Shown here: positions 4,647-64,000 of the stretch, one piece after another
How the letters are laid out: each line of letters begins with the position of its first letter
Numbering within the stretch: the stretch's first letter is position 1
Assembly: GCA_016183235.1 (NCBI GenBank)
Contig: JACPFA010000047.1
Span: 1 to 64,000, forward strand
DNA: 64,000 nucleotides
Direction of reading: 5' to 3'
Source: Deltaproteobacteria bacterium
Lineage (GTDB): Bacteria; UBA10199; DSSB01; JACPFA01
Notes under the pieces: model-generated
The model's database searches: none
What the model was told of the DNA's origin: nothing
Seen by the model: only the letters and a program-made list of their open reading frames with translations
Translations under genes and position numbers: made by a program

Positions 4647-6107
4647 ATGAGGGGAGTCCTTAAATTTCTTGCTGTTGCCTTTATTCAAGGCTTACTGCTT
4701 CAATGTAGCGGGGGTGATGCCTCACCACCGGTTACCCTGCCCACACCGGGGGCCGCCAATGCCAATGTTATTATGGTGACCTCGCCCGATGAAAATGGGT
4801 CGAGTAAAGTCGTTGGCGAGGCTGGGGCAGTTAATGCATCGGGAACGGTTAAGATTTATTCCCTAGATTCAACCAGTTTATTTCAATTACCAACCCGGTT
4901 AATTTCTAACATCGCCTACGCCCAATCGAATTTATTATGCAGCACCCTAGCGGACACCGATGGTTCCTTTAGTTGTTCCTTTTTGGCCAGCATTGGCACC
5001 TTGCTCTGCATTACTCAAGTTGATGCCAATGGTCAAAGCTCCGATTGTTTACAAAGAGAAGTCCCGGCTGGCATACCACCTTATAATTTAACCACCCTGA
5101 TCGATGCCTCGATCGATGAGGCTAGCTCCATGACCTATTTGTTGGGGCAAGATGAAAATAACCAATACAAACTCAAAATTTTTAATAATCAAACCAAGGC
5201 TCATGCCGCAACTCTAACCCTGAATAATCTATCTACTTCCTTAGGCACGGCTCATTTAACGAGCGTGACCGCTTACAATGGTGAAGTGGTGATTACGGCT
5301 GACACTGAAGGCATGCTTTTCAAGATTACCCTCGATTCATCACTCACACCACAAGGCGAAGTGGCAACCCTGAATGTCGCTAGCGATCAACAATATGGCT
5401 GCAGTCTACCCACCTATGTGCGTTTTGACCCTGAACTCAATGCGGGCGAATCGAGCCCACGTTTCTTGCTGGTTTGCCAAAATAGCGGAGTCGAAAATCG
5501 CCGCTTCTTAGAATTTGATACTCAGCTTAATGCCGTGCATCGTTTTGGCCAAATCTCGGGCAGCAAATCCTTTGCCTTTGGATCGGAATACATGAGCCTG
5601 TCAACCAGTGGTGACCATGTGTGGTATGTAGGGGCAGGGTTGACCAATGGCAATACCGAAATTTATCGCCTCATTCCTAATGATAACAATCTCTTCACCA
5701 TCAAAACTAAAGAAGTTGAAGGCCGGTTTCGCTCTTTTTCGTCGGGCGACAAAAGTAACGGCAGCGATGTGCATATTGGTATGGGGGTGAATCAAACAAC
5801 TTCTTTGGCAGGAACCACGTTTTTGGAAAATGACGATGTGAATTTAAGAGATATTCCCTTAACCAACAACGTTACCGCAAACGATGCGGTGTGTTATCGA
5901 CGTAGCAATTGCTCCACTGGTTATGTTTTATCGAGTAGCGAAAAATCGGTTTTTTCTATCAATTTAAGTTCGGACACCCCCACCGTACAAGGCACGACTT
6001 CTATTGGCGGCCTTCAACCCGCACGGCTCTTAGTCGACGAGTCTTCTGGCAAAGTTATTGTGGTGGATTACAAAAGCCAAGCGGTCTATTGGGTAGACTC
6101 ACTCTAA
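4647..6107 (+). CDS. Lipoprotein, possible beta-propeller, function unknown
   Basis: The start is placed at MRGVLKFLAV because GGGAGG/GGAG sites precede it and a signal peptide with lipobox (LLLQC, Cys near residue 19) follows directly. The longer upstream frame lacks these. The 486-aa mature part is rich in Ser, Thr, Asn and Gly, with repeated strand patterns such as HLTSVTAYNGEVVITADTEGMLFKI and LQPARLLVDESSGKVIVVDYKSQAVYWV. These look like propeller blades, but no named family is recognised. Several paired Cys could form disulphides. It is followed 37 bp later by tamB on the same strand. Confidence 0.68.
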   Translation: MRGVLKFLAVAFIQGLLLQCSGGDASPPVTLPTPGAANANVIMVTSPDENGSSKVVGEAGAVNASGTVKIYSLDSTSLFQLPTRLISNIAYAQSNLLCSTLADTDGSFSCSFLASIGTLLCITQVDANGQSSDCLQREVPAGIPPYNLTTLIDASIDEASSMTYLLGQDENNQYKLKIFNNQTKAHAATLTLNNLSTSLGTAHLTSVTAYNGEVVITADTEGMLFKITLDSSLTPQGEVATLNVASDQQYGCSLPTYVRFDPELNAGESSPRFLLVCQNSGVENRRFLEFDTQLNAVHRFGQISGSKSFAFGSEYMSLSTSGDHVWYVGAGLTNGNTEIYRLIPNDNNLFTIKTKEVEGRFRSFSSGDKSNGSDVHIGMGVNQTTSLAGTTFLENDDVNLRDIPLTNNVTANDAVCYRRSNCSTGYVLSSSEKSVFSINLSSDTPTVQGTTSIGGLQPARLLVDESSGKVIVVDYKSQAVYWVDSL

Positions 6108-55445: not shown

Positions 55446-55546
55446 AATACCCCCTCATCAAAGTAATGCTTGAAAAATGATTTTGAATGAATCAGGATAG
55501 CTTGTCGATGGGTAATTTTTGCCATGCTTTAGAACCCGTTGTAATT

Positions 55547-57175
55547 ATGAAAAAAATTAGAATTTTTTTAAAAATAGGCGTGGGTTTGTTTTCTTTACTT
55601 TTAGGGGTAAATTTTGCCCAAAGCGAAGAGCTTGCCCAATTTGCCATCGGCACAGATAGCCTTACAATCAGCCCTAGCACGACTACAGTCATCAAAGGCT
55701 CCACCCAACAATTTGCCGCCACCCAAACCACCGCTTCGATTAGCCAAGGAGGTACGGCTTGGGGTTGTGGCAATGGTGGATCAACGGGATGGTCGGTAGT
55801 AGGCGGTGACAGCAATGGGACTATTTCAACAGCAGGTCTTTATACACCGCCCTCTACGTTACCGGCCGACCCTGAAGTGACCATACGATATACGAATGCA
55901 GGGCTTACGGCCCAAGCCACCGTCAATTTAAGAACGGCTACCAGTATTAGTTTTGGCACCACCACCCAAACCAACACCACCGCAATCCTCATTAATGTTG
56001 TAGTGGTTGAATCTCTCTTGGGAGGATCGGGTAATCGCATTGCCAGTCGAGTAGGAAGTTTGCAAACTGGTTTTTCGTGGCTAGGGATTGATAGTGGTGG
56101 TTTTGCTGATGTCTTCTTCAATCAACAATCGGGGCTGTCTGGTTTAGTAGGCCTACAAAATATTTCGAATGATCCAACCGGTAATCAAATTCCACAAAGT
56201 GTGATCATTGATAGTGATCTCAATCCCGGCGTTTTTATAACTGGGGCTAATGGGTTGCAATACTTGAGTAGTCAAAATGATGGTGCCAGCTTTGGCACCC
56301 CCGTCGCCATTCAGTCGGTCAGCACTCAGCCTGCCACAGCAGCTTCTGCCATTGATGCAAATAATAATCTCCACGTGGTTTACACAAATAATTTTGATTC
56401 TGATGAAGATGACAACGATGGCAATGGAGATGATGGGTTAGTTGAAACTGGCCAAGTTAAATATGCCCAAAGCACCGATGGTGGCCAAACTTGGAGCACC
56501 CAGGTGATTCAAAGCTCTACCAATGTCCAAATAGATCCCGCCTTGGCTGTGAGTGAAGATGGCCAAGAAATTTATGTTTGTTATGCTGACGATCTAGGTA
56601 CAGATGAAACCTTTGAAATGATGTTTACCAAAAGCACCGATGGTGGCACCACCTGGGCCACTCCTCTTGAATTAAAAGAAAGTTTAGGGATTAGCCCTCA
56701 AGAAGGTTTTTCGGCTTTCTGTCAAATTGCTCTAGGCCCCAACAACGAGGTTTATCTCACCTATAATGAGACTTTAACCGGCAGTGCCGTTGACCATCAT
56801 CTTTATTTTACCCAAAGCACCAATGGAGGCAGTAGTTTTTCAACCCCCATACAAGTAAGTTCACAAGCCCTGACTCAAAGACCCTATATCTATTTTAATC
56901 ATTTTATGGCGGTGGATTCCCTGGGTCGCATCGATATCATTTGGCCCCTTGATGTTGGGGCAACCAACGCCCCGCCCGATACCATCATGTACGCCCGTAG
57001 TACCGATGGCGGTGTAACTTTTTCCTCAAATACCACCCTCGCCGGTGGGCTTGCTACCATTCGCGCTATCCCCATTGGCCTAACCCACGATATTTCGGGG
57101 CGAGTTCACGTGCTCTATTTAGATAGTGGAACCAGCACCACCGAATACAATGTTTTCTACATCCGCGGTGAATAA
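55547..57175 (+). CDS. Secreted protein with Ig-like and BNR/sialidase-type repeats, copy 1
   Basis: About 542 aa. Start at MKKIRIFLKIG, where the signal peptide begins. An Ig-like (Big-type) domain (LTISPSTTTVIKGSTQQFAAT... ISTAGLYTPPSTLP) is followed by a propeller with Asp-box repeats STDGGQTW, STDGGTTW, STNGGSSF and STDGGVTF. Asp boxes mark sialidase-like propellers, but catalytic sialidase residues are not obvious, so a binding role is as likely. HFMAVDSLGRIDIIW and THDISGRVHVLY are shared with the next gene, its tandem paralogue. Confidence 0.72.
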   Translation: MKKIRIFLKIGVGLFSLLLGVNFAQSEELAQFAIGTDSLTISPSTTTVIKGSTQQFAATQTTASISQGGTAWGCGNGGSTGWSVVGGDSNGTISTAGLYTPPSTLPADPEVTIRYTNAGLTAQATVNLRTATSISFGTTTQTNTTAILINVVVVESLLGGSGNRIASRVGSLQTGFSWLGIDSGGFADVFFNQQSGLSGLVGLQNISNDPTGNQIPQSVIIDSDLNPGVFITGANGLQYLSSQNDGASFGTPVAIQSVSTQPATAASAIDANNNLHVVYTNNFDSDEDDNDGNGDDGLVETGQVKYAQSTDGGQTWSTQVIQSSTNVQIDPALAVSEDGQEIYVCYADDLGTDETFEMMFTKSTDGGTTWATPLELKESLGISPQEGFSAFCQIALGPNNEVYLTYNETLTGSAVDHHLYFTQSTNGGSSFSTPIQVSSQALTQRPYIYFNHFMAVDSLGRIDIIWPLDVGATNAPPDTIMYARSTDGGVTFSSNTTLAGGLATIRAIPIGLTHDISGRVHVLYLDSGTSTTEYNVFYIRGE

Positions 57176-57249
57176 CAAATTCACTTTGCAAATCCCCCTT
57201 AAATCCACTAGAATTATTTGATACAGTTAATTGTAATGAGAGGTTGGTG

Positions 57250-58926
57250 ATGAGGTATTTTTTGCGGGGGGCGTGTTTAATCCTTATTGGCATTACGACG
57301 CTTTTAACCAATAAAGGGATGGGGCAGACTATTGGTCCTTCCCAAGGTGGTGGGGGTTTTGGTTGTTCTAACTCTACTTCCAGCAGTGGAGGTAGTGGGA
57401 CCGATGCGCTCACGATCTCGCCTTCCGGCACTGTAACCGTCACGAAAGACGATACCCAACAGTTCACGGCTAATAAAAGCGATGTCACATGGTCTATTGT
57501 AACTTCTGCTGATATTAGCCTAAGCGAATCTTTTGGTGAAATTTCAACAACGGGCCTTTACACACCTCCTAGCACCTTGCCTTTAAATCCAAGCACCACA
57601 CTCCGCGGTTGTGCCGGCTCCGAATGTGTGGATGTAACCATTAACCTCCGCACGGGCGATTCCATCACCTTTCCCGCCACCGATACACAACTCAACACCA
57701 CTGAAAATTTTGTGACCAGTGGCCAAGACTTTTCTGTTGCCTATTCCGGCATTGGCCATCGGCTTGACACCACCATTGGCTCACTTCACAAAACGATGGG
57801 TTATCTTACTGAACTCAGTGGCTCCAGGGCCAGTACTGAAAAATTTGGGTTGTTCAATCTCCTTAACGTCGCAAGCCCTGTCGAAGACTATATCGACATT
57901 ACGGCCACCAACAATGAAATTCCCTTAGCGATTTTTTATCTCGACACCTCCACCCTCGCGGTTTTTTATGTCGACTTTTTAGCCAACCGTTCAGGAAGTT
58001 CTATGGTACTAAAATGGAAAACCATTGATGAATCTGGAACGACCCAACAAAATCGCAGTTCAGTGTTAACAGATGTGTCAGGCCTTCAATTTAGGGCCGA
58101 TGTTTATAAAAATGGGAGTTATTTTGACGGCATCATGGCAATTTGGGATGCAATCACTTCACCTACCTTGAGTCGTTTAGTGTTCTTTCGCTGTGCTACG
58201 GATGGATCCTCTTGTACGAGTAGTACCATAGCTTCTAGTTCGTCGTTGATTCATTATTATCCTGAAATTATCTCGATTGGAGATACGCTCCATATTTGTT
58301 ACATGGCCACCAATAGTGCTGGAACCAACCAACAAATTTATTATACCCAATCCACTGATGCCGGCTCTAGCTTTTCAAGCCCCACCCAAATCACTAACGA
58401 TTCGAATGGCTGGCTCTATTGTCAGATTGACATGTCACCTCTAGATAGCAACAAGCTTTATCTCACCATGTCTGGAGAAAGCGGTGGTTCCCGCACCGAA
58501 CAAATCGAAGGTGAAGTGGGTAGCGAAACTTCCCTCTGTAGCGCCGATTGTTTAAACACCTCCGCAACCGGTCAAACCTATTTTAGCAAAAGTACAGACA
58601 ATGGAACTACCTGGAGTACCGCTGCACCCATTGGTACTGGCATTTCCCGTTCGGTGGATTCAGTCAATGAATTGATTCATTTCATGGAGGTTGATTCGTT
58701 AGGCAGGATTGATCTTGTTTATGGTACCCTCAACGACTCAAGGCGAACCATCTACCACACTCGCAGCAGCGATGAAGGAAGCACTTGGACCACCCCTGTC
58801 GCCTTAGGCACCCTGGATTCAAGGCCGGTAGGAGTTAATCACGATATCTCAGGAAGGCTGCATATTTTTTATCACTGTGAAGAAAGTGCGAGTTCAACCA
58901 ATTATTGCTTCAACAGCGCTGAATAA
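57250..58926 (+). CDS. Secreted protein with Ig-like and BNR/sialidase-type repeats, copy 2
   Basis: 558 aa. Start at MRYFLRGACL with GAGAGG about 7 nt upstream, not the earlier TTG. Signal peptide, Gly/Ser-rich spacer, Ig-like domain (TISPSGTVTVTKDDTQQFTA... ISTTGLYTPPSTLP), then a propeller with Asp boxes STDAGSSF, STDNGTTW and SSDEGSTW. It is paralogous to the preceding gene (shared VDSLGRID and HDISGR) but has more Cys (for example LRGCAGSECVD). Probable tandem duplication. It converges on the surface-lipoprotein gene with 2 bp between stops. Confidence 0.72.
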   Translation: MRYFLRGACLILIGITTLLTNKGMGQTIGPSQGGGGFGCSNSTSSSGGSGTDALTISPSGTVTVTKDDTQQFTANKSDVTWSIVTSADISLSESFGEISTTGLYTPPSTLPLNPSTTLRGCAGSECVDVTINLRTGDSITFPATDTQLNTTENFVTSGQDFSVAYSGIGHRLDTTIGSLHKTMGYLTELSGSRASTEKFGLFNLLNVASPVEDYIDITATNNEIPLAIFYLDTSTLAVFYVDFLANRSGSSMVLKWKTIDESGTTQQNRSSVLTDVSGLQFRADVYKNGSYFDGIMAIWDAITSPTLSRLVFFRCATDGSSCTSSTIASSSSLIHYYPEIISIGDTLHICYMATNSAGTNQQIYYTQSTDAGSSFSSPTQITNDSNGWLYCQIDMSPLDSNKLYLTMSGESGGSRTEQIEGEVGSETSLCSADCLNTSATGQTYFSKSTDNGTTWSTAAPIGTGISRSVDSVNELIHFMEVDSLGRIDLVYGTLNDSRRTIYHTRSSDEGSTWTTPVALGTLDSRPVGVNHDISGRLHIFYHCEESASSTNYCFNSAE

Positions 58927-58928
58927 TT

Positions 58929-60380
58929 TTATTCCAAATAGCGAAAGCTAACGGCATCTAGATCAAACCCGGCTGCCCCGCCACCACCGCCATTGTCAAG
59001 GTCGGTAATTTTAACAAATTTGATACTACCAACGCCCACTTGGTTCAAATCAAAGGCATCTCCACCGGCAACATTAGGATCTGTGGGATCAATATTGTTA
59101 TTGGGATTGGCTTGCACGGGGTGAACGCCCGCACAACCCGGATAGAGCAAGGCCGCATTGTCTGCATCACAAGCAAAATCAACAAAAGCCTCCCCATTGT
59201 GACTGACACTGACCGTCCCTAATTCTTTGAAGGGATTATTAGGATTGCCGCCAATCAAAAATGGATTTTCAAAAACCATAAGATCAGCCCCTGGCCCATC
59301 AAAAGCAAAACTTTCTGATTCCAAGATAATCTCACCGCTGGTCCCAAGGGAAAGCACATTTAAACCAGCCCCCAAATTTCCGCCCCCCTGCGGAGAGCCC
59401 AACACAATTTCAGGAAACTTATTACTACCAAACCCAGCCCCCGCTCCTGGTAAAAAACAAACCACCCGATCTGCAAACGAATCAAAATGCTGTTCTAAAG
59501 GTGCCAGGTCACGAGAAATATAAATTGTTTGATGGTAATTCCCCCAACTCACCTCAATTCGGGCGCAACCTGATTGCTCGCCTGAGATATTTCCATTTTT
59601 ATGCAATTGGGCAACTTGTAAATCACTCGAAGTAAAACTTAAAGCCATTTTTTGTTGTTCATTAAGTGGGGCCTGGGTCCCATCTGAAAAAATTCTGTAA
59701 AATTGAGTGGCATGGTCATTGAGCTCGCCGATGATGACCAATTGCGGTTCTACTTTAAAACCCGTAACTATTTTTGAGTCATTGGGATCTTCTTCTACCA
59801 CGGGCGGTGGAGGCGGAGGGGGTTCGGTGGGGGTCGGAGTAGGAGTAACGATCGGAGTTGGAAACGGCTTTGATGTTGGCACTACCGTTGGCGTTGGGCT
59901 TGGGCTTGGAGTGGGTGGTAAAGAACAATCCCAAATTTTGACTAAATAAGATCGGCCAAACTCTGGGTGTAAAACAATCAAATAAGTATAACCAACTTTA
60001 CTCGCAGTCAGTTGCCCTGCTTCATTGATTGAAAATAAAATGGGCCCAAAGTTAAACCATTGAATGCCTTTACCCTGAAATTCATTCTGAACTAAATAAG
60101 TCTGACTTTGCTGATCGGTTAATTTCAAATATATATTCACTTGATCAGATAAACACAGTTGTAAGGGGATTGCAGGATCAAACATTTGATCATCAATCAC
60201 CAAATCAACTTTAGAAATTTTAATAGGGTTTTCTTTTATCACAGCTGGCAAGCTCGAAGGCGTGGGTGCTGGAAGCTCTTCTTGATTGGTCGTGGCTTTA
60301 GGTTCTTGAAAAACTTCTGAACCGCAGGCACTCAAACCTAACAGTGATAAAATTAAAAATAGGAATTTTATTTGTTTCAT
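58929..60380 (-). CDS. Surface lipoprotein with Ig-like and cell-surface C-terminal domain (btu locus)
   Basis: 483 aa. Start at the ATG (MKQIKFLFLILSLLGLSAC), with AGGAG 10 nt upstream. Lipobox LSAC, an N-terminal beta domain, a long Pro/Thr linker (about 160-200), an Ig-like domain and a C-terminal domain follow. That last domain has VVCFLPGAGAGFGSNKFPEIVLGSPQGGG, GPGADLMVFENPFLIGGNPNNPFKELGTVSVS and GGDAFDLNQVG...FVKITD...AGFDLDAVSF. This C-terminal domain recurs in surface proteins of varied bacteria and loosely resembles DUF4465-type domains found beside B12 receptors. Third gene after the cobalamin riboswitch; role in B12 capture is inferred. Confidence 0.7.
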   Translation of the reverse strand: MKQIKFLFLILSLLGLSACGSEVFQEPKATTNQEELPAPTPSSLPAVIKENPIKISKVDLVIDDQMFDPAIPLQLCLSDQVNIYLKLTDQQSQTYLVQNEFQGKGIQWFNFGPILFSINEAGQLTASKVGYTYLIVLHPEFGRSYLVKIWDCSLPPTPSPSPTPTVVPTSKPFPTPIVTPTPTPTEPPPPPPPVVEEDPNDSKIVTGFKVEPQLVIIGELNDHATQFYRIFSDGTQAPLNEQQKMALSFTSSDLQVAQLHKNGNISGEQSGCARIEVSWGNYHQTIYISRDLAPLEQHFDSFADRVVCFLPGAGAGFGSNKFPEIVLGSPQGGGNLGAGLNVLSLGTSGEIILESESFAFDGPGADLMVFENPFLIGGNPNNPFKELGTVSVSHNGEAFVDFACDADNAALLYPGCAGVHPVQANPNNNIDPTDPNVAGGDAFDLNQVGVGSIKFVKITDLDNGGGGGAAGFDLDAVSFRYLE

Positions 60381-60400
60381 AAGATTCACTCTCCTAATTT

Positions 60401-60475
60401 AGAGATTGCTTCGGCAAGATTGCCTCGCAATGACATGGGGGCGGTGTCATTGCGAGGCGAGCCGAAGCAATCTCT
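60401..60475. repeat. Dispersed CATTGCGAG-type hairpin
   Basis: AGAGATTGCTTCGGC (60401-60415) pairs with 60461-60475, and GCCTCGCAATGACA with TGTCATTGCGAGGC. It lies between the two lipoprotein genes of the btu locus and could attenuate transcription into the distal one. Confidence 0.75.
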
Positions 60476-60484
60476 ATGACGACA

Positions 60485-61828
60485 TCAATACGTTTGCACG
60501 GCCTTCAACACGCCTGGACTGGCTTGAATGATAAAAAGGTCTGGCCCACTAAAATCAGTGCCCGGAGTCCCTGGCCTAAAGGCAATCGGGCCAACCCCTG
60601 TTACCCCAGGATTATCGGTTTCTGTAAAATCTAATACTTCTGATAGTAAGGGATAATTGGCATCACCCAAATCTATCCCAAAAATTTTATTGTCGTTAAA
60701 ACTAGCCACCGCCAGCAATTCACCATCGGCTCGCACGGCCATGTCACTAATAAATTGCAACTGGGTTTGTTGACTGCCTAAATAAATAGGATTACTCGCA
60801 CCACGCACCGTGGTCATAGCATTGAGATCAATCGCATAACATTTGTTTTCCATATAACTGCCAATAAATCCCAAATTATCTTCGGCAGCATAGGCTATTT
60901 TTTTGAACGTCAAACCTACCATGCCCATATTAAGCGAAGTAAGGGTTGTTAAAGTTGTGGTGTTCAACCGATCTAAGAGTGAAGGTGTCGTAGGAACTGG
61001 TTTAAAACCTTCATCGTATTTAAAATCTCCCGAATTGGTGATGATCAAATCACCAACCTTGCTTAAAAGCAGGCCGGTGGGATTAAATCCGCTCACCTCA
61101 AGATAAGGGGTGGCAGCGATCGTCAAGTAGGGTGAACTGTCGTGCAAATCATAAAGACGCAAAATGCCCTTGGCGCGATATGTTGTACCCGTTGCTGTGA
61201 AATACAAATTGGCCATGCTGACAAAAACCTTATTTTGTGACACAACTACATCTGAAGCAAAAGAAGGGCTGAAATTGCCTGATAAAGAAATTTCTTGGTC
61301 CCCGTCACCATCTGTATCCACAGCCTCCGAAAGCAACAAAGGTTGTTTCAATTTAAAAACATCGGCCAGTGAGACCGCTTGCAAAATTTGGCCGCTGGTT
61401 GGATTAAAATAAACCAGGCTTGCCCCAGTTAATAAAAACCCTTGGGTGGGGCTTAAAAAGAAAGACCCAACTCCAAAATCAAGACTTGACCCCTTTGGCA
61501 AGGTACCAAGATCAAGTCCAAAAAATTTGAGGCTCGCTTGGAGATTGTTTAAATCAATCGGGACCAAGTAAGGAGGTTCAGCCAGCGTAATAAACGCTGT
61601 ATCTCGCATCCCGTCAATATTGGGGATATCGATATCAGCGGGAAACAACGACCCCAGGTTTAAACTGCCACAACTTCCTGCCAATTGTTTGCCATCATCA
61701 GCAACCGGTTTACAAGGCGCCGTGCTACTAAATTGTTCCTCGGTATTTTCTTGGGTGATAATCCCCCCACCACAACCCACAAAGAAAAATAAAATGATTA
61801 GTATAGAATATCGTTTTATCTTGTTCAT
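60485..61828 (-). CDS. Beta-propeller-like lipoprotein next to BtuB (BtuG-like candidate)
   Basis: 447 aa. Start at MNKIKRYSIL with AGGAG 8 nt upstream; the longer frame runs into repeats. Signal peptide and lipobox FFVGC. The mature part has recurring blade-like units: AFITLAEPPYLVPIDL, GASLVYFNPTSGQIL, VVVSQNKVFVSMANLYF, ILRLYDL, NPTGLLLSKVGDLIITNSG, FISDMAVRADGELLAVASFNDNKIFGIDL. This is a YVTN-type propeller layout. It directly follows the riboswitch-controlled receptor gene. In Bacteroidetes, BtuG is a propeller lipoprotein that captures B12 over BtuB; the same role is inferred here, without sequence proof. Confidence 0.68.
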   Translation of the reverse strand: MNKIKRYSILIILFFFVGCGGGIITQENTEEQFSSTAPCKPVADDGKQLAGSCGSLNLGSLFPADIDIPNIDGMRDTAFITLAEPPYLVPIDLNNLQASLKFFGLDLGTLPKGSSLDFGVGSFFLSPTQGFLLTGASLVYFNPTSGQILQAVSLADVFKLKQPLLLSEAVDTDGDGDQEISLSGNFSPSFASDVVVSQNKVFVSMANLYFTATGTTYRAKGILRLYDLHDSSPYLTIAATPYLEVSGFNPTGLLLSKVGDLIITNSGDFKYDEGFKPVPTTPSLLDRLNTTTLTTLTSLNMGMVGLTFKKIAYAAEDNLGFIGSYMENKCYAIDLNAMTTVRGASNPIYLGSQQTQLQFISDMAVRADGELLAVASFNDNKIFGIDLGDANYPLLSEVLDFTETDNPGVTGVGPIAFRPGTPGTDFSGPDLFIIQASPGVLKAVQTY

Positions 61829-61855
61829 ATTTGTTACTCCTATTATCAATGTCAT

Positions 61856-61922
61856 ATATGGATCCCGGCTCGAGGGCCGGGATGACGTAATGCCGTCATG
61901 CCGGACTTGATCCGGCATCCAT
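61856..61922. repeat. Two dispersed palindromes after btuB
   Basis: GGATCCCGGC/GCCGGGATGAC and TCATGCCGGA/TCCGGCAT hairpins lie between the btuB stop and the next gene start. Both belong to the dispersed family seen elsewhere in the window. Confidence 0.7.
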
Positions 61923-61923
61923 T

Positions 61924-63861
61924 TTAACTCTTATATCCCACCGTCACATACGCCTGTATTCCCGGCAGCGGGAATCCACGCGCATCTAACGTCGACACAT
62001 TGCTAACGTTTTTTACCTGTACGGTTAAAAAATAAAATTTTTTGAATTTAAGCGTCCCGCCTACATCCACGAGGGTTCGATTTTTAATAAAAGTCGTATT
62101 GGCAAAATCGATCGGCAAATCATCCACCCAATTGACTTCTGCAAATAAAACACCCCAAGCGTTACTCAATTCAATCGAGCCATTAATTTTATGCCGGGGG
62201 CGACCAGGAAGTTGAGCCGAACTATTTTCAAAACTAGAATCTAAAAAAGTATAATTGCCTTTTAATTCCAAAAAAGAAAAAGGCTGCACCGTAAGATTGG
62301 TTTCTACTCCTTGGGTCACAAGATCGTTGGTGTTGATCGGTGCAATCGTATAGGCACTCACCGGTACAAAAATAATTGAATTGGCGATGTCATTACGAAA
62401 GTAAACGACTTCGGCCTCTAATTTAGAAAATTTTACCCCCACCCCCCCATCAAAATTAAAAGCTGATTCTTTTGATAATTGAGGATTGCCCCGCAGGTAA
62501 CCAAGATTGGGCAAATAAAGTTCGGTAAAATTAGGAAACCGAAAAGAATTGCCAACATTAATTTTAAAATAAAGATGAGCTATGGGTTTTAAAATGATTC
62601 CCAAATGCCCTGCCCACTCACTGCCAAAATCTAAGGCGTGCTGAAAACGTAAACTGGGGTTTAAATAAAGTTTTTCCTGCCATAGCGAGATTTCATCTTG
62701 CAGTAATAGGGCATTGCTAAGTCGAGTTTTATTTCCAATGGCCGCAGCGCCACCTTGCAAATAATCATCACGAAAATAATCGACTCCCAATTCATACAAA
62801 AGTTTAAAGGCATGATTGTGTTTGGCAAAGGTCTTGAAATAATCCGCACTCGCTTGTTGGGTAAAGTTGACATTGAGATAAGTGACATCAATCGCCCCAC
62901 CTAAGGCTGGGGTCAGGTCCATAAAATGACTGCGGCTTAAATTAACCGATGGTAAAAAGGTAAGGTTAAGATTTTGCATCCCAACATTGTGCCCCATCCA
63001 TTTTAACCCCATGGTATTACGCGCTAAATTTTCATGGGCATTGAGAGGCAACCCTTCAATGACTTGGGCTTCTGTGCCAGGGATATCACGATCGCTGTAA
63101 TAGAGATTATTGACCCAAGTGGCTGACCAATTTTTGTTGATAGCAAAATCAAACCGCGAAAATAAATTTTCGCTCAAAATAGCATTGTTTTCGCGAGTAA
63201 AAGTTTGGCCGCCTCCAAACGCACGGCCCCCAATGGTTAGCGGAGTCGATTTAAATTTAAAATCACCTTGAGAATTTAAATGCGTATGATTGATTTGAAA
63301 TCCCCATTTTTCAAAGCGCTTACTGATTCCCCCATCCAGGCGTGCTGTCCAAAAAGAACCTCCTGTTAAAGCCAAATGATAATCTTTTTCTCCCACGGCT
63401 TGCTGGCTCACAATATTCACCACTCCCCCAATGGCATCGCCACCAAAACGACTGCTCCCCCCACCACGAATGACCTCCACTCGATCCGCCGCGTTCAAGG
63501 GCAGTGTCGAAAAATCAAGTGAATACCCCTGCGGCGTATTGATACGAATGCCATCCACAAATACCGCCACTTGTTCACTACTAGATCCACGGATCTGCAA
63601 GGTCGTGTAATGCCCCAGGCCACTGGTTTCTTTGGTGTAAACCCCGACTTCTTTAGTTAAGACCTCGGGCAAAGTACGCATTTGCAGTTTAAATTTTTTA
63701 GGTTGAATAATAGAAGAAAAAGCCGAGGGTTTTTCTAAAGATTCTTTAGAAATTTCTTCTTCGGCTACAATCTCACCTAAATCCGCTTCGCCTGACAAAG
63801 GCGGTTCAGCCCAAGCAAGACAAGAAAACAAAAATATAAATAAAATAGCGACCGCGCCCAT
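61924..63861 (-). CDS. btuB: TonB-dependent outer-membrane receptor, probable cobalamin receptor
   Basis: A 645-aa TonB-dependent transporter. Signal peptide (AILFIFLFSCLAWAEPP), an acidic N-terminus, a plug domain (LPEVLTKEVGVYTKETSGLGHYTTLQIRGSSSEQVAVFVDGIRINTPQG, RVEVIRGGGSSRFGGDAIGGVVNIVS) and a 22-strand barrel. The barrel has the FRFPNFTELYLPNLGYLRGNPQL segment typical of BtuB/FecA-like proteins and ends FPLPGIQAYVTVGYKS. A cobalamin riboswitch lies 39 nt upstream, so B12 or a related corrinoid is the likely substrate. It heads a unit with two lipoprotein genes. Confidence 0.9.
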   Translation of the reverse strand: MGAVAILFIFLFSCLAWAEPPLSGEADLGEIVAEEEISKESLEKPSAFSSIIQPKKFKLQMRTLPEVLTKEVGVYTKETSGLGHYTTLQIRGSSSEQVAVFVDGIRINTPQGYSLDFSTLPLNAADRVEVIRGGGSSRFGGDAIGGVVNIVSQQAVGEKDYHLALTGGSFWTARLDGGISKRFEKWGFQINHTHLNSQGDFKFKSTPLTIGGRAFGGGQTFTRENNAILSENLFSRFDFAINKNWSATWVNNLYYSDRDIPGTEAQVIEGLPLNAHENLARNTMGLKWMGHNVGMQNLNLTFLPSVNLSRSHFMDLTPALGGAIDVTYLNVNFTQQASADYFKTFAKHNHAFKLLYELGVDYFRDDYLQGGAAAIGNKTRLSNALLLQDEISLWQEKLYLNPSLRFQHALDFGSEWAGHLGIILKPIAHLYFKINVGNSFRFPNFTELYLPNLGYLRGNPQLSKESAFNFDGGVGVKFSKLEAEVVYFRNDIANSIIFVPVSAYTIAPINTNDLVTQGVETNLTVQPFSFLELKGNYTFLDSSFENSSAQLPGRPRHKINGSIELSNAWGVLFAEVNWVDDLPIDFANTTFIKNRTLVDVGGTLKFKKFYFLTVQVKNVSNVSTLDARGFPLPGIQAYVTVGYKS

Positions 63862-63899
63862 CTCTCAAGCCCACGAAGAGATAAGTTATAGTTGAACTT

Positions 63900-64000
63900 T
63901 GTGCTAGGTCTCCTGGCTTAAGAGATTTCTTCAAGCCTTCCCATCTTGAATGGACAGTGGCTGTTTTTTGAAGAAACGTTTTTCTCTATTACAGTGGCGG
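63900..64000 (-). ncRNA. Cobalamin riboswitch (3' part; rest beyond window)
   Basis: Read on the minus strand, GCCACTGT (63954-63961), GGGAAGG (63936-63942) and AGCCAGGAGACCTAGC (63902-63917) occur in the order and spacing of the conserved cobalamin-riboswitch core, ending in the B12 box. A further GCCACTGT begins near 63998. It precedes the btuB ATG by 39 nt and should repress the receptor operon when adenosylcobalamin is abundant. The 5' portion lies outside the window. Confidence 0.9.

Follow-up and report, generated by a model that had tools for sequence, protein, structure and literature searches.

In the BtuB-BtuCDF system of enterobacteria, a TonB-dependent receptor (TBDR) is encoded behind a cobalamin riboswitch and, to our knowledge, surface lipoproteins play no part. 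The operon described here lies at one end of a 64,000-nucleotide stretch of DNA from a deltaproteobacterium-like genome (contig JACPFA010000047.1, positions 1 to 64,000; hereafter the window). It too has a TBDR gene behind a cobalamin riboswitch but, unlike the enterobacterial system, it also encodes two lipoproteins, one a beta-propeller and the other carrying a C-terminal domain that we call FDLDAV after a motif within it. BtuG, the propeller lipoprotein of the systems closest to this one, binds vitamin B12 with femto- to picomolar affinity and forms a stable BtuBG complex. The layout of BtuH2 is one of immunoglobulin-like (Ig-like) PKD domains followed by a C-terminal B12-binding domain (PMC8941943), while BtuG1 of Bacteroides thetaiotaomicron is a propeller with a BtuH domain at its C-terminus (PMC10404256). 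Secreted B12-binding beta-sandwich proteins of the DUF4465/BtuJ jelly-roll family occur near btuB in many phyla, frequently with a propeller as neighbour (PMC13398666, PMC12751083). We are fairly confident that the window operon is a corrinoid (vitamin B12) acquisition system working like BtuB-BtuG-BtuH of Bacteroides.

An earlier note, made from the letters of this DNA alone, had claimed that a riboswitch and genes for a TBDR, a propeller and a second lipoprotein lie on one strand with short gaps, and this was confirmed by Rfam, by Pfam and by the conserved order in relatives. Read 5' to 3' on the minus strand, the riboswitch is followed by the TBDR, the propeller lipoprotein and the FDLDAV lipoprotein (Table 1). 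The riboswitch–TBDR gap is 24 nt, and the TBDR–propeller and propeller–FDLDAV gaps are 95 nt each, both of the latter containing repeat elements.

Table 1. Positions of the operon components in the window, and of second propeller genes at related loci
Feature	Position	Strand	Evidence
Cobalamin riboswitch aptamer, RF00174	63886-64000 in window, to 64053 on contig	minus	Rfam
BtuB-like TBDR, 645 aa	61924-63861	minus	Pfam plug + barrel; NCBIfam TIGR01779 best
Beta-propeller lipoprotein, BtuG position	60485-61828	minus	Homologues, AF2, Foldseek, lipobox in sequence
Ig-like/Pro-rich + FDLDAV lipoprotein, BtuH position	58929-60389	minus	Lipobox LSAC, homologues
FDLDAV C-terminal domain, residues 299-486 (188 residues)	58932-59495	minus	AF2 model, Foldseek, NCBIfam LIC_13355
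Nested perfect inverted repeat, propeller–FDLDAV gap	60400-60476	no strand	Repeat scan
Second propeller genes	L057 796-2244; L074 7922-9382; L107 7575-8957; L123 7530-8903; L165 7497-8930		

The order of the operon and its domains are kept in relatives, far beyond chance. Among 99 genomes sampled around the window genome, 46 of them from the same class, propeller homologues were found in 20, with full-length copies in 18 other class genomes (19 sequences including that of the window). For seventeen of these 19, the contig also carries a TBDR and a riboswitch on the strand of the propeller; the contig end cuts off the remaining two. The FDLDAV domain is present in 47 of the 99 genomes (40 of the 46 from the class and seven outside it), and in 37 of the 47 a same-strand riboswitch lies 0–10 kb upstream of the FDLDAV gene. 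The ten misses comprise seven genes at contig ends, two genomes in which no riboswitch was found and one true separation (G034). By chance, such a pairing would be expected at ∼0.2% per genome, a rough figure based on one or two riboswitches per 2–3 Mb. Thus, the propeller and Ig-like proteins do not lie mostly away from btuB (17 of 17 untruncated propellers have a TBDR and riboswitch, and the FDLDAV gene follows a riboswitch in 37 of 47 genomes), both families show strong co-occurrence with cobalamin riboswitches in related genomes, and the relatives support the suggestion of the earlier note that a BtuB-like receptor and two co-regulated lipoproteins stand under a cobalamin riboswitch outside Bacteroidetes.

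When GTDB genomes were scanned once with the FDLDAV alignment as query, at least 300 relatives were returned, of which the best 80 loci were analysed; these are mostly records of Deltaproteobacteria, Myxococcota, Planctomycetota and CSSED10-310. Using a motif pattern that gave zero matches in shuffled sequence, we found an upstream same-strand riboswitch at 50 of the 80 loci; where the sequence extends 3 kb or more upstream, the count is 48 of 67. Propeller-like genes are neighbours at 35 of the 80 and a TBDR at 23. A search of plasmids found no FDLDAV domain, and the propellers it matched were generic. At five myxobacterial loci (L112, L102, L116, L143 and L172) a riboswitch immediately precedes the FDLDAV gene and no TBDR was detected next to it; it is possible that the products of such genes are stand-alone B12 traps. 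Six planctomycete loci (L100, L108, L117, L121, L122 and L134) have FDLDAV genes for which no riboswitch was found, as is general for planctomycete copies, and there the role of the domain may differ.

The riboswitch is cut by the window edge, and the part inside the window scores 44.4 bits against RF00174 (E 6.8e-8), while the complete element on the contig scores 83.2 bits (E 5e-21). It lies directly upstream of the receptor gene, as expected for the control of a BtuB, and is the sole cobalamin riboswitch that the RF00174 search found across the 2.6 Mb genome. It would presumably act as an OFF switch. RNA folds from the riboswitch to the start codon gave no clear expression platform (start region z 0.37, with alternative pairings), and scans for consensus promoters and terminators gave matches at chance level only. 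Within 63840–63920, two alternative pairing partners are available to the start-codon region GGGCUUGAGAGAUG, namely a nearby AUCUCU and AUCUCUUAAGCC beside the B12 box.

The receptor matches the Pfam plug (2.2e-19) and barrel (7.8e-32) models, and among NCBIfam models TonB-B12 (TIGR01779) ranks first (E 1.9e-44), at a score of 152 bits that is below the required 599.7. Siderophore and heme receptor models in NCBIfam also match. Both the low score and these additional matches could be taken to mean that the operon imports not B12 but a corrinoid precursor, a cobalt complex or some other riboswitch-coupled metal or tetrapyrrole ligand. We consider this very improbable, given that TonB-B12 is also the best NCBIfam model for the receptors of three divergent relatives, that the only riboswitch found in the genome is of the cobalamin class and that B12-dependent enzymes are present. 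Indeed, the window genome contains six B12-binding-domain matches, one of them in a 1190-aa frame, and no match to CbiC, a single marker of B12 synthesis that does not by itself prove absence of the pathway. As a result, a need for B12 uptake is plausible in this little-known deltaproteobacterium-like lineage.

The mechanically called open reading frame of the propeller (60485–61918) begins inside a repeat element, and the true start is likely the ATG at 61828, from which a signal peptide with the lipobox FVGC can be read in the sequence. Weak propeller matches on contigs C15, C14 and C43 were discarded because they cover only residues 1–27, which are translated repeat element. The AlphaFold2 (AF2) model has a beta-propeller fold (pLDDT 88.5), and Foldseek matches it to propellers including BtuG2 (8bai, E 1.1e-8, rank 21), a fold match that is generic. 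The protein therefore has the three features looked for in a BtuG, namely a beta-propeller, a lipobox and a gene beside btuB, with all the untruncated homologues adjoining a TBDR. It has no Pfam match, and so falls outside DUF5074 (PF16819), the family of BtuG. Three of the 19 homologues match DUF5074 at E about 0.02, the scan for this family across the class gave few or weak matches, with none in the window genome, and sequence comparison of the propeller with the PDB gave no meaningful match. In several relatives FDLDAV is followed by a second propeller gene, of diverged sequence, which the window lacks. On one relative's contig (L056, genome G001) there are two cobalamin riboswitches (825–980 and 4760–4898), one preceding the TBDR and the other directly preceding the propeller gene.

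The FDLDAV lipoprotein carries the lipobox LSAC, again read in the sequence. Pfam calls no Ig domain in the Ig-like N-terminal part of the window protein; in the relatives L067, L079 and L080 this part is Big_2. Together with the co-occurrence described above, the lipobox and Big_2 give the protein the attributes of a BtuH, that is, a lipoprotein with an Ig-like N-terminal stalk encoded at a btu locus. The AF2 model of the FDLDAV domain is of high quality (pLDDT 95.4, pTM 0.92). Conserved residues of the domain include D71, E76, N77, E91, D149, D165, D178 and D180. In a Foldseek comparison with the PDB, its top match, and the sole one with E<1e-3, is 8blw_B, which is BtuG1 with its BtuH domain. 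Since the 50 matches listed include no BtuG entry that consists of the propeller alone, the model match appears to fall on the BtuH domain. The lower matches are to CBM32/F5-8 type C domains, including AlyQ.

At the level of sequence profiles, the only named relative of the domain is the LIC_13355 lipoprotein family (NCBIfam NF033170), which all 38 of 38 FDLDAV domains match (best E 1.7e-15) at scores below the cut-off. No genome exceeds the curated value of 120 bits, and the FDLDAV proteins are thus related to this family rather than members of it. Membership of DUF4465/BtuJ was rejected, with a Pfam match in 0 of 38 and 0 of 86 FDLDAV domains. The domain has no Pfam family and only the name 'hypothetical lipoprotein', and the open literature searched yielded no link between it and B12. 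Because the profiles connect FDLDAV to neither BtuH nor DUF4465, it is to be regarded, on present profile evidence, as a distinct sequence family occupying the H position of a BtuBG(H)-like operon.

Several results weigh against a BtuH-like role for this protein. The alignment with 8blw_B has a TMq of only 0.55 and a root mean square deviation (rmsd) of 13.7, and BtuH2 (7BIZ) is not among the 50 fold matches listed; for both reasons we treat the modelled fold link between FDLDAV and BtuH as suggestive. Profiles of 38 and 86 FDLDAV domains, searched against all PDB chains (a set that included 8blw and presumably 7BIZ), retrieved neither BtuH nor BtuG1 at E up to 10, and direct sequence search of the lipoprotein against the PDB gave no meaningful match. 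About one quarter of the FDLDAV loci with at least 3 kb of upstream sequence, notably those of planctomycetes, have no riboswitch. In Leptospira, cobalamin riboswitches have been reported before LIC12374/btuB and LIC20135, not before LIC13355 (PMC3953431).

It could be argued, then, that the BtuBG-type importer consists of the receptor and propeller and that FDLDAV is a surface anchor, a glycan- or polymer-binding protein or a structural operon-mate, discoidin/CBM32-like and with a non-corrinoid ligand. Such a role would suit the CBM32/F5-8 type C matches beneath the top one, the FDLDAV genes that have no riboswitch and the related LIC_13355, which has been studied as a Leptospira adhesin or host-binding lipoprotein, with reported binding to laminin and plasminogen (PMC11891782). 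We nevertheless think it unlikely. No other gene is as consistently associated with the riboswitch as FDLDAV, which is often the first gene, 150–350 nt downstream, and the association holds even where no TBDR was detected beside it (L112, L102, L116 and L143). BtuH2, too, has only modest structural similarity to AlyQ-type domains (PMC8941943), and AlyQ is among the matches to FDLDAV.

Fusions between the two lipoproteins in relatives also favour the interpretation of the operon as a BtuB-BtuG-BtuH-like system. In ten genomes of the class, propeller and FDLDAV form a single open reading frame of 636–811 aa. The fusion at locus L086 joins FDLDAV to a propeller that scores above the Pfam DUF5074 cut-off and is similar in sequence to BtuG1 (8blw_B, E 3.8e-10); the gene lies behind a riboswitch and a TBDR in a genome rich in type IX secretion system (T9SS) sorting domains. 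A second propeller subfamily takes the middle position in other loci, and aligns both with the window propeller (hhalign Prob 98.4, E 5.5e-15) and with L086, which it finds at 1e-23. The resulting chain from the window propeller to L086 is suggestive only, because propellers readily align with one another. As BtuG1 itself carries a fused BtuH domain, the pairing of propeller and C-terminal domain is common to both systems. The idea in the earlier note that an Ig-like plus C-terminal-domain architecture is new for a B12 role is weakened accordingly, by these BtuG1-like fusions and because BtuH2 has that same layout (PMC8941943). Its description of the module as distantly related or independently assembled fits the data better, with no sequence match to BtuH, a propeller below DUF5074 and BtuG1 as the best fold match of FDLDAV.

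The DNA around and between the genes contains further features. The inverted repeats between the propeller and FDLDAV genes have arms of 16 and 14 bp and look like a dispersed palindromic element, and the TBDR–propeller gap (61829–61923) consists of palindromic repeat-like DNA. On the plus strand, 55487–58926 encodes two neighbouring paralogous secreted proteins with BNR-like repeats and Ig-like N-termini; this pair converges on the operon and ends 2 nt away from it.

For the steps beyond gene content we drew on the Bacteroides system (PMC10404256). Low cobalamin would allow the riboswitch to permit expression of the operon. The FDLDAV lipoprotein, held off the outer membrane by its Ig-like/Pro-rich stalk, would capture corrinoid and hand it to the propeller lipoprotein, which would probably act as a lid on the TBDR and release the ligand into the barrel, and TonB would power import through the receptor. 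By analogy with Bacteroides, corrinoid binding by the FDLDAV lipoprotein or the propeller may be expected, as may surface exposure, ligand hand-over and the lid role of the propeller. More tentatively, and at slightly less than even likelihood in our view, FDLDAV may constitute a separate corrinoid-binding family with no recognisable descent from BtuH, BtuJ or BtuG, with at least 300 loci across many phyla, acting as part of BtuBG-like operons and, in myxobacteria, as stand-alone surface traps under riboswitch control. If this is true, part of the unexplained LIC_13355-like lipoproteins would belong to vitamin acquisition. A likely function can be offered for a domain that lacks a Pfam family. 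The small size of the domain (188 residues) and the high confidence of its model make this an inexpensive prediction to test.

How the locus compares with described systems differs from case to case. LIC_13355 of Leptospira has the same core domain as FDLDAV, whose scores against that family lie far below the 120-bit cut-off. The DUF4465/BtuJ proteins are similar in being beta-sandwich proteins in btuB neighbourhoods; in contrast to FDLDAV, they have a HI-loop motif (GTPAYF/NTPAY), which was not seen in the FDLDAV alignment consensus, and no FDLDAV domain matches DUF4465 in Pfam. From the Bacteroides thetaiotaomicron systems the window differs in that its propeller falls short of DUF5074, FDLDAV is without sequence similarity to BtuH, the stalk is Big_2-type where recognised rather than PKD, and the host is deltaproteobacteria-like rather than a member of Bacteroidota. 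With BtuB1-BtuG1 (BtuGH) and BtuB2-BtuG2-BtuH2 of that organism it shares the riboswitch, the TBDR and the propeller lipoprotein (PMC6143338, PMC8941943, PMC10404256), as well as a second lipoprotein with an Ig-like stalk and a C-terminal domain, occasionally fused to the propeller; the best fold match of FDLDAV is to BtuG1, and its weaker similarity to AlyQ is shared with BtuH2. The capture of B12 with the help of lipoproteins is known from work on gut Bacteroides, and the same three-part logic now appears in environmental lineages. The recurrence of this logic and of the fusions, where sequence similarity is slight or absent, suggests a very old divergence or else repeated assembly.

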